A stretch of 64,000 bases of DNA, taken from positions 434,001-498,000 of the forward strand of contig NZ_CP036273.1 in NCBI RefSeq assembly GCF_007747215.1, given 5' to 3'. The position numbers were made by a program, and so were the translations under genes. The stretch's first letter is position 1; every line of letters begins with the position of its first letter. Shown piece after piece: positions 36,240 through 60,072 of this stretch. The stretch is from Urbifossiella limnaea (lineage in GTDB: Bacteria > Planctomycetota > Planctomycetia > Gemmatales > Gemmataceae). The notes beneath the pieces are model-generated. The model was not told the DNA's origin, did not search any database, and saw nothing but the letters and a program-made list of their open reading frames with translations.

Positions 36240-39572
<3,333 letters not shown>

Positions 39573-39848
39573 CGCGTTGCCTCCTGCGTGCGCCGGCCGC
39601 GCGCCCGGGAGAAGGGCGCGCCGGCCCGGCGTACCGTCGGTTAAACGGCCGCGGCCGGCGGGGTCAAGGGGCCGCGTCGGTCCGACGTTCATTCGTGGCA
39701 TCGACTCAATGCTTCTCCTGACCCCCCCCGGTGGGGGAGGCGGAGAATCATCCGCGGCCGGCGACCGGAGGACGCTCGTCCCGGAATTCCTGACAGATTC
39801 CCCCCCGCGTGTGCCATCCTTATTGTTACACCCCGCGGAGGAGCCGCT

Positions 39849-41921
39849 GTGACCGCCGCCACGCACCCCCCGGCCGACACCCTCAGCGCCTTCGGCCGCG
39901 GGGAATTGCCGCCCGACGAACTCGCCACCGTCGCCGACCACGTCGCGGCCTGCGCCGACTGCTGCGCCGCGCTCGGCGACGTGCGCGACGACAGCCTCGT
40001 CGGCCTGCTCCGCGAGCTGCGCACGCCCCCCGACGACCGCACGAACGCCACGCCGGCCGGGAGCACGCCGTCGGTGCTGGCCTTCCCCGACGCGCGCTCG
40101 GTGCTGGCCGACCACCCGCAGTACCGGCTGCTGGACCAGCTCGGCGAGGGCGGCATGGGCGTCGTCTTCCGGGCCGAGCACAAGGTGATGGGCCGCGTCG
40201 TCGCGCTGAAGGTGATGGCCCCGCACCTGACCGAGAAGCCGAGCGCCGTCGCCCGCTTCAAGAAGGAGGTGAGCGCCGCGGGGAGGCTGAACCACCCCAA
40301 CATCGTCACCGCCCACGACGCCGGCGAGGCGGGCGGGCTGCACTTCCTGGTGATGGAGTACGTCGAGGGCGTGAGCCTGGACAAGCTCGTGGCGAAGAAG
40401 GGGCCGCTGCCGGTCCCGCAGGCGTGCCAGTTCGTCCGGCAGGCGGCGCAGGGGCTCCAGCACGCCCACGACAAGGGGATGGTGCACCGCGACATCAAGC
40501 CGCAGAACCTGATGGTCACCCGCAAGGGGCACGTCAAGGTGCTCGACTTCGGGCTGGCGCGGTTCGCCCGCGACGCCGCCGAGCACCCGCCCGAGGGGTC
40601 GAGTGCGTCGACGCGGCTGCCGCCGACGGCGGTGACCGGCATGAACATGATCATGGGCACGCCGGACTACCTCTCCCCGGAGCAGGCCCGGTGCGCGGCC
40701 GTGGACATCCGGGCCGACGTGTACTCGCTCGGCTGCACGCTGTACTTCCTGCTCACCGGCCGGGCGCCGTTCGAGGGCGCGGGGTCGGTGTTCGACAAGA
40801 TTCTGGCGCACGCCACGGAGCCGCAGCCGTCGCTGGCCGCGACCCGGCTCGACGTGCCCGGCGGGCTGGAACTGGTGCTGGCGAAGATGACCGCGAAAGA
40901 CCCCGCGGCGCGGTTCGCCACGCCGGCCGACGTGGCCGCGGCGCTGGCCCCGTACGCCCGCGGGGAGGGCGCCGGTACGCAGCCGGTGGTCGAGGCGGCG
41001 TTCGCCCCCGCGCCGCCGGCCGTGACGCCGCCGGCCGCGTCCACGCTCGTGCCCGACCCGCCGCCGACGGACGTGATCGTGCGGGCGAGGCCGGCGAAGA
41101 AGCGGAAGAAGGCGGCGCGCTCGGCGTGGACGCCGGCCCGGTGGGCGGCGCTCGCCGGCGTGCTGGTCGCGGTGCTGATCGGCGGGCTGGTGGTGCGCGC
41201 GGCGCTGAAGAAGCCGCCGCCGACGACCGCGGCCACGACGCCGACGCCCGAGCCGCCGCGGGCGGCGGCCGCGGCGCCGCCCGCGAAGTCGGTGGCGGCG
41301 ACGAAGCCGACGGAGCCGGCGCCGAACCCGTGGCGCGGGGCGCCGCCGCAGGTGCTGTTCGTGCTGCCGACGAAGGGGCTGTACCCGCCGGACTACGCGC
41401 CGGTGCGCGAGCGGCTCGAAGCCGCGGGCGTGGGGGTGAAGGTGGCCGTCGGCCCGCCGCCGCCGTTCGGCCCGTTCGAGCCGGGGTACTCGTACCCGAA
41501 GAAGGACGGCCCGCCGACGCCGCCGGTGCGCGCCGACCTGGTGTTCGGCGCGGACATCGACCTGACGCCGGTGCGGGCGCTCGTGTTCGTCGGCGAGGAC
41601 GTGGGCGAGTTCGTCGGCCCGTCGCCGAAGGGCCAGGCGACGGGGCAGGTGATCCGCCGGGCGCGGGAGAAGAACCTGGTGATCGGCGGCATCTGCACGG
41701 GCCAGCTGGTGCTGGCGAAGCACGGCGTGCTGGACGGGAAAACGGTGGCCCGGAGCCCGTACTCGGAGCAGTACGCGGGCCGGTTCGGGGTGCCCTACCC
41801 GGCGCCGCAGTTCACGCTCGACGACGCCCCGGTGCGGACGGCCGGCCGGGTGGTGACGGCGGCCGGCCCCGAGCACGCGGCCGCGTTCGCCGACGCGCTG
41901 GCGGCGGCGCTGCGGGAGTGA
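39849..41921 (+). CDS. Ser/Thr kinase fused to an exported DJ-1/PfpI domain
   Basis: 690 residues from GTG 39849 with a GGAGGAG site. Residues 25-45 hold a His-Cys-Cys zinc-finger-like motif (HVAACADCC) of the anti-sigma type. Residues 92-370 are a PASTA-type bacterial kinase: GEGGMG, Lys121, HRDIKPQN with Asp215, and DFG at 233-235. A Pro/Ala linker and one TM helix (about 432-449) follow. Residues 500-690 form a DJ-1/PfpI (glutamine amidotransferase-like) domain, with nucleophile Cys616 in GGICTGQ and the acidic VGEDVGEF strand. The kinase would be cytoplasmic and the DJ-1 domain periplasmic, so the latter may sense a stress such as a reactive carbonyl. The combination is unusual. Confidence 0.9.
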   Translation: MTAATHPPADTLSAFGRGELPPDELATVADHVAACADCCAALGDVRDDSLVGLLRELRTPPDDRTNATPAGSTPSVLAFPDARSVLADHPQYRLLDQLGEGGMGVVFRAEHKVMGRVVALKVMAPHLTEKPSAVARFKKEVSAAGRLNHPNIVTAHDAGEAGGLHFLVMEYVEGVSLDKLVAKKGPLPVPQACQFVRQAAQGLQHAHDKGMVHRDIKPQNLMVTRKGHVKVLDFGLARFARDAAEHPPEGSSASTRLPPTAVTGMNMIMGTPDYLSPEQARCAAVDIRADVYSLGCTLYFLLTGRAPFEGAGSVFDKILAHATEPQPSLAATRLDVPGGLELVLAKMTAKDPAARFATPADVAAALAPYARGEGAGTQPVVEAAFAPAPPAVTPPAASTLVPDPPPTDVIVRARPAKKRKKAARSAWTPARWAALAGVLVAVLIGGLVVRAALKKPPPTTAATTPTPEPPRAAAAAPPAKSVAATKPTEPAPNPWRGAPPQVLFVLPTKGLYPPDYAPVRERLEAAGVGVKVAVGPPPPFGPFEPGYSYPKKDGPPTPPVRADLVFGADIDLTPVRALVFVGEDVGEFVGPSPKGQATGQVIRRAREKNLVIGGICTGQLVLAKHGVLDGKTVARSPYSEQYAGRFGVPYPAPQFTLDDAPVRTAGRVVTAAGPEHAAAFADALAAALRE

Positions 41922-59340: not shown

Positions 59341-60072
59341 ATGACCGCGCCCGAATCATTCCCGCGGATCGTGATCGTGAAGACGCCGATGGGGACGGTC
59401 GGCGACGTGATCCCGCTGCGGCCGGGCGTGACGGGGATCGGACGCGACCCGGAGCCGCGCCCCGGCGAGGCGGGGCTGATCCTCCTGCCGCACTACGCCG
59501 TCTCGCGCCGGCACGCCCGGCTGACCCGCACCGCCGACGGCGTGGTCATCTTCGAGGACTGCAACCCGCGCGGCGGGCTGACGCTGAACGGCCGGAACGC
59601 CATCGGCCGCGGGCCGGTCGCGCTCAACGACGGCGACCGCCTCAAGGTCTGCGACTTCCTGTTGGAGTTCCGCACCGGCCCGACCGCGCCGCCGGCCGCG
59701 GGGCTGTCCGACACCCGCCAGTACATCGTCGAGGTGGCCACCACTGAAGGGCCGATCTCGGAGCGGTACGACACCTACGAGGAGGCGGCGGCCCGAATCG
59801 AGGCGCTGCCGGCGGCCATCGTGCGCGGCATGCCGTTCCTCTTCCACGAGCTGCCGGACGGGTCGCAGCGGCTGGTGCGGAACGACTTGAAGCCGCTCCA
59901 GTGGCACCGGCTGGAGCACGAACAGGACGTGCCGCTGGGGGACGAGGTGATTCCGCTCGGCGACGAGAACGACATCCCGGAGGCGGTAGGGTACGTCGGG
60001 CCGCGGATCAAGCCGATCTCGCGGCCCGTCGAGGACGACGACGGGGAGGAGCCGCTGCCGCTGGCGGAGTAA
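59341..60072 (+). CDS. FHA-domain protein
   Basis: 243 residues from ATG 59341. An FHA domain at about residues 10-110 carries the phosphothreonine-binding signature GIGRDPE, YAVSRRHARL and NPRGGLTLNGRN, so it should read phosphorylation by Ser/Thr kinases such as the one at 39849. The C-terminal half is acidic and beta-rich (YIVEVATTEGPISERYDTYEEAAARIE; PLGDEVIPLGDE) and not assigned. It lies three bases after the VanZ-like gene in the same operon and is convergent with cobL. Confidence 0.9.
   Translation: MTAPESFPRIVIVKTPMGTVGDVIPLRPGVTGIGRDPEPRPGEAGLILLPHYAVSRRHARLTRTADGVVIFEDCNPRGGLTLNGRNAIGRGPVALNDGDRLKVCDFLLEFRTGPTAPPAAGLSDTRQYIVEVATTEGPISERYDTYEEAAARIEALPAAIVRGMPFLFHELPDGSQRLVRNDLKPLQWHRLEHEQDVPLGDEVIPLGDENDIPEAVGYVGPRIKPISRPVEDDDGEEPLPLAE

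Follow-up and report, generated by a model that had tools for sequence, protein, structure and literature searches.

A planctomycete Ser/Thr kinase with an anti-sigma motif and a DJ-1/PfpI-fold domain, a candidate transmembrane transducer linked to an ECF sigma factor

The stretch of DNA analysed here (the window) is 64,000 nucleotides of the Urbifossiella limnaea chromosome, and contains at positions 39849-41921 of the plus strand an open reading frame that begins with GTG, runs in a single frame with zero internal stops, and codes for a 690 aa fusion protein. Its segments, all on the plus strand, are an N-terminal zf-HC2 (ZAS) anti-sigma motif (residues 12-38, H31-x3-C35-x2-C38; 39882-39962; PF13490), which is also recovered in a whole-genome scan, a Hanks-type Ser/Thr kinase domain (residues 92-356; 40122-40916; PF00069, E 9.6e-49), a single TM helix (residues 435-453; 41151-41207; hydropathy 2.42 over 19 residues), and a DJ-1/PfpI-fold domain predicted to be extracytoplasmic (residues 496-690; 41334-41918). 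The kinase has the VALK lysine, the HRD of HRDIKP, and the DFG motif. Within the DJ-1/PfpI domain are Asp515 (codon 41391-41393), at the position of Glu18 of human DJ-1, and Cys616 (codon 41694-41696), at the nucleophile position. The frame, Pfam matches and motifs thus confirm the architecture described in an earlier note made from the DNA, including the location of Cys616 within GGICTGQ. The N-terminal side of the TM helix is K/R-rich, and in positive-inside reasoning such a flank lies on the cytoplasmic side of the membrane; hydropathy and charge would therefore put the kinase in the cytoplasm and the DJ-1/PfpI domain outside. A hydrophobic segment separates the two domains in all 26 relatives.

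About 1 kb from the kinase gene is a KatG-like catalase-peroxidase gene (36240-38837, minus strand) with two peroxidase domain matches, the product of which has an N-terminal stretch that looks signal-peptide-like. We rejected it as a redox partner, as it is absent from the neighbourhood of the fusion in all relatives. A small ORF that is rich in Cys and Gly and contains long Thr/Pro repeats (39096-39689, minus strand) has no Pfam match and is not conserved beside the fusion, and a partner role for it is not supported. The downstream PRPP synthetase gene adjoins the kinase gene in only one relative (G057, from one other genus), and a scan with sigma-70-like consensus sequences revealed neither a promoter nor a terminator. 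The FHA protein proposed previously to read the phosphorylation state of the kinase is real (an FHA-like protein of 243 aa, read from sequence; 59341-60072, plus strand), but its gene lies about 17 kb from that of the kinase, and no link between the two was found.

Assignment of the C-terminal domain is supported by profile matches and by structural modelling. The whole protein matches PF01965 (DJ-1_PfpI) at residues 597-685 with 37.4 bits (cut-off 26.6; E 3e-9), the domain scanned alone does so with 40.8 bits against 26.6 (E 2.5e-10), and all 27 family members match in individual scans (E up to 0.1). A family profile matches 82 PDB chains, and the 60 listed of these 82 are members of the DJ-1/PfpI superfamily, the foremost being plant DJ-1d (E 6e-30), PfpI/PH1704 and human DJ-1. 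A structural model of the C-terminal part, as suggested in the earlier note, was built with AlphaFold2 from the single sequence (pLDDT 69.5, pTM 0.72), and a fold search with it returned DJ-1/PfpI chains at Z 15-17.5 with about 165 residues aligned. Model, fold search and family profile all give DJ-1/PfpI rather than an unrelated Rossmann-like fold, and on this modelling and profile evidence the domain is a DJ-1 fold. It does not match the PfpI/YhbO-type deglycase model TIGR01382 (23.1 bits, cut-off 139), and the Cys-His pair of that type is absent, the window protein having Cys-Thr.

We searched for similar fusions in 95 genomes of the window's family, probably the planctomycete family Gemmataceae, and identified them in 27, almost always as one copy per carrier genome. 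Fusion proteins score at least 164 bits with the family profile and the next proteins no more than 85, and this gap together with the single frame across the 27 genomes shows that the fusion is not the result of a frameshift or an annotation artefact, nor are the kinase and DJ-1 domains separate proteins. Every one of the 19 genomes of genus g7 carries the fusion, as do two of the six of the window's own genus, and G032 contains a diverged kinase/DJ-1 fusion (L140:1112-3274) as a second copy. Beyond the family, a single genome of this phylum, G175, codes for a kinase that has a DJ-1 domain at its C-terminus (L123); of the long DJ-1 proteins sampled from the rest of the phylum (about 430-1200 aa), only this protein and the second G032 copy include a kinase. 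A pattern-based contig scan for the DJ-1 domain gave one match only, a distant one in Nocardia. We found no literature on a DJ-1/PfpI-kinase fusion in planctomycetes, an absence that is not proof, and the earlier view that DJ-1 is a rare kinase sensor is supported. We note that the window genome also codes for a protein with a DJ-1/PfpI domain and RTX calcium-binding repeats (L135:2021-3634; G000:C1:about 1373020-1374633), whose motif FYYREY resembles the kinase-fused domain; the association with RTX repeats hints that this organism has extracellular DJ-1 domains.

The N-terminal His-Cys-Cys motif had been noted previously and is indeed present, but its identity as an anti-sigma zf-HC2 motif, and with it the likely ECF output, had been missed. 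In a scan of the N-terminus by itself, residues 12-38 match PF13490 with 25.2 bits, above the cut-off of 22.2; in a scan of the whole protein the score is 21.8 bits, just under this cut-off. The Hx3Cx2C motif is present in 22 of the 26 relatives, with an alignable flanking region, and is missing from the other four in the frame examined. Hx3Cx2C is the recognition signature of zinc-binding class I anti-sigma domains (PMC7406223), and we interpret the motif as a putative anti-sigma signature through which the protein may bind a sigma factor. Other zf-HC2 motifs are located near ECF genes in the window's genome (e.g. at 3882716 and 890578).

A candidate for this sigma factor is apparent in the relatives. 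In 15 of 26 loci there is an ORF of about 200 aa immediately upstream of the fusion gene and on the same strand, and all of those scanned (n=4) are ECF sigma factors with TIGR02937 matches over the cut-off. The gene upstream of the window copy is not an ECF gene. However, the window genome contains an orthologue (L182:8151-8735; G000:C1:5702150-5702734) that is 72% identical to the ECFs of the relatives, 5.2 Mb from the kinase gene and adjoining groEL/groES; its next ECFs are 40-49% identical. We count this separation of the two genes against our preferred explanation, although the ECF is unlinked yet retained both here and in several other genomes. Among the 95 family genomes an ECF scoring above 230 bits is present in 21 of the 27 fusion carriers and in none of the 68 non-carriers. 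Eighteen of those 21 are in one genus, so the co-occurrence does not represent 21 independent events, and independent support for the link comes from genera g1, g7, g14 and g18, together with G080. The latter is one of six carriers without an ECF above 230 bits, and has an adjacent ECF that is 49% identical. In the window's genus, the window genome has both fusion and ECF, four genomes have neither, and in one (G001) the fusion is present but a close ECF is not. The ECFs have an acidic D-x-x-D motif in region 2.2, mostly DADD in place of DAED. From gene neighbourhood and co-occurrence, a dedicated ECF sigma factor is the likely output of the kinase, and is better supported than other outputs.

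Similar arrangements are seen elsewhere in the window genome, where the genes of four related ECFs (40-49% identical) have kinase genes nearby, the kinases mostly with Hx3Cx2C motifs. The C-termini of these kinases contain either WD40 repeats (read from sequence) or an FGE-sulfatase domain (Pfam), and the C-terminal domain therefore looks like an exchangeable sensor; the window protein looks like the DJ-1 version of such a module. L186:6710-8818, near a related ECF gene, codes for a membrane Ser/Thr kinase that has the Hx3Cx2C motif and in which an FGE-sulfatase domain occupies the sensor position.

The nucleophile position of the fused domains is variable. By position, Cys616 of the window protein is in place at the nucleophile elbow, but among the 27 fused domains this residue is Cys in 19 and Gly in five, with single cases of Ala, Ser and Asp; a ninth Cys-less domain is that of the diverged G032 copy, which has Ala. 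On the family tree (built from an alignment of 724 columns, the Cys column among them) the fewest changes that account for this pattern is eight, of which five are forced by well-supported branches alone, and the Cys-less members cluster no more than shuffled labels do. Seven columns other than the Cys position are invariant in the fused-domain alignment. The position equivalent to Glu18 is Asp in 25 of the 27 and Glu in two. None of the 27 has a His directly after the Cys, whereas nearly all standalone copies compared from the same genomes do. Human DJ-1 likewise lacks this His, and the missing Cys-His pair therefore does not exclude activity. We also note a standalone DJ-1/PfpI protein in the window genome (L092; G000:C1:947592-948029) in which Gly replaces the nucleophile Cys and the His is kept (AAIGHGPQ).

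We propose, with a probability of roughly 0.6, that the protein is a transmembrane transducer of the ECF-linked kinase class contained in one polypeptide, with the DJ-1/PfpI fold as its sensor. A more specific proposal, that a fold which was once a Cys enzyme now serves as an extracytoplasmic ligand sensor that drives the anti-sigma/kinase portion and its own ECF, with the Cys dispensable, is tentative and slightly less than an even bet. The extracytoplasmic domain would bind a small ligand in the old active-site pocket, which is the simplest reading of the DJ-1 pocket. The DJ-1 fold forms dimers in known structures, and ligand binding could alter how the kinase domains pair across the membrane, and through this the activity of the kinase. 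The Hx3Cx2C domain would hold the dedicated ECF sigma factor until either the domain is autophosphorylated or the sigma factor is phosphorylated, which would free the sigma factor to RNA polymerase. Because the ECFs keep the acidic motif they should bind RNA polymerase unless held, and an anti-sigma partner is thus to be expected; the acidic motif taken together with the anti-sigma motif favours sequestration with release on phosphorylation. Phosphorylation of zinc anti-sigma factors by PknB has been reported to release their sigma factors (PMC8999054). Activation of the ECF by phosphorylation in the manner of ECF43 was considered and rejected, as the partner ECFs keep the acidic motif.

Three other explanations warrant consideration. 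The earlier note had proposed an external DJ-1 sensor joined to an internal kinase, with oxidation of Cys616 as a signal, and the first part of this, a membrane kinase with an extracytoplasmic sensor, is supported. An oxidation or adduct at Cys616 could switch the kinase, making the protein a redox or carbonyl sensor, and this would fit the Cys at the nucleophile elbow of most members and the KatG-like peroxidase-family gene near the window copy. We take Asp17 of Pseudomonas isocyanide hydratase to be the equivalent of DJ-1 Glu18. This Asp is natural in that enzyme (PDB titles), and E18D DJ-1 has been crystallised with oxidised C106 (PDB 3f71), such that Asp at this position is compatible with some Cys chemistry. 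However, E18D lowers the propensity of the human DJ-1 Cys for oxidation (PMC8270312), the KatG-like gene is beside the kinase in no relative, and the Cys has been lost at least five times while the fusion and the rest of the domain were retained. With the Cys lost in eight of 27 members through at least five changes, its oxidation cannot be the general signal of the family, and we regard a redox switch as unlikely, although Cys chemistry is possible in the window protein itself, which keeps Cys616.

The domain could instead be a tethered enzyme of the outer face (a deglycase, glyoxalase or hydratase) to which the kinase is incidental. The fold and the retention of the nucleophile in most members are consistent with this, but the Cys-His pair typical of the standalone copies is in none of the fused ones, eight have no nucleophile at all, and the link to an intact kinase has been conserved; we consider this explanation very improbable. 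Somewhat less remote, but still doubtful, is that the kinase acts without a sigma factor on other targets such as FHA proteins, and that the zf-HC2 motif is a structural relic. The window copy has no adjoining ECF gene, there is an FHA gene in the same window, and four relatives lack Hx3Cx2C, but the zf-HC2 match is over its curated cut-off in the scan of the N-terminus, and a specific ECF, encoded elsewhere in the genome, has been retained and co-occurs with the fusion from genome to genome.

If the more specific proposal of a DJ-1 ligand sensor with a dispensable Cys is true, three bacterial signalling principles are combined in one polypeptide. The class of sigma-factor-linked kinases is already known; a DJ-1 sensor in which the Cys is often missing is unusual. 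The family would provide a natural set of DJ-1-fold sensors with and without the Cys, in which Cys-dependent and Cys-independent roles could be compared through kinase and sigma output. It further points to a way in which planctomycete-type ECF/kinase systems diversify, with the anti-sigma and kinase portions constant and the external sensor (WD40, FGE-sulfatase or DJ-1) swapped.

The protein resembles several known systems in part. It shares with human DJ-1 (PARK7), the PfpI/YhbO deglycases and isocyanide hydratase the fold, recovered with both DJ-1 and PfpI chains, and here the nucleophile-elbow Cys, but the fused domain is without the Cys-His pair, is joined to a kinase, is predicted to be extracytoplasmic, and has a Cys that has been dispensable in evolution; unlike human DJ-1, it has Asp at the Glu18 position. 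With the PASTA kinases (PknB/Stk1) its predicted topology has in common a cytoplasmic kinase, one TM helix and an external sensor, but the PASTA kinase model NF033483 (PknB_PASTA) gives 305 bits against a cut-off of 450, covers only residues 91-449 (the kinase and TM helix), and there are no PASTA repeats. Zinc anti-sigma factors of the RsrA and ChrR type (zf-HC2) have the same N-terminal Hx3Cx2C, and as with these a putative cognate ECF is next door in most relatives, but the window protein carries the motif in one chain with a kinase, a TM helix and a DJ-1 sensor of its own. The planctomycete groups ECF59, ECF61, ECF62 and ECF217 have a Ser/Thr kinase in their gene context (PMC8999054) and resemble most relatives of the fusion, and the related ECF/kinase pairs of the window genome, in having an ECF gene beside a kinase gene; here the differences are the DJ-1/PfpI sensor, the zf-HC2 N-terminus, and the acidic region 2.2 motif kept in the ECFs. 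Signalling from a kinase to an ECF is also the principle of EcfP/PknT of Vibrio parahaemolyticus (ECF43), in which STTA stands in place of the DAED motif of region 2.2 and the charge is regained through phosphorylation (PMC8103513; PMC8999054). EcfP needs phosphorylation to bind RNA polymerase, whereas the partner ECFs described here have mostly DADD.
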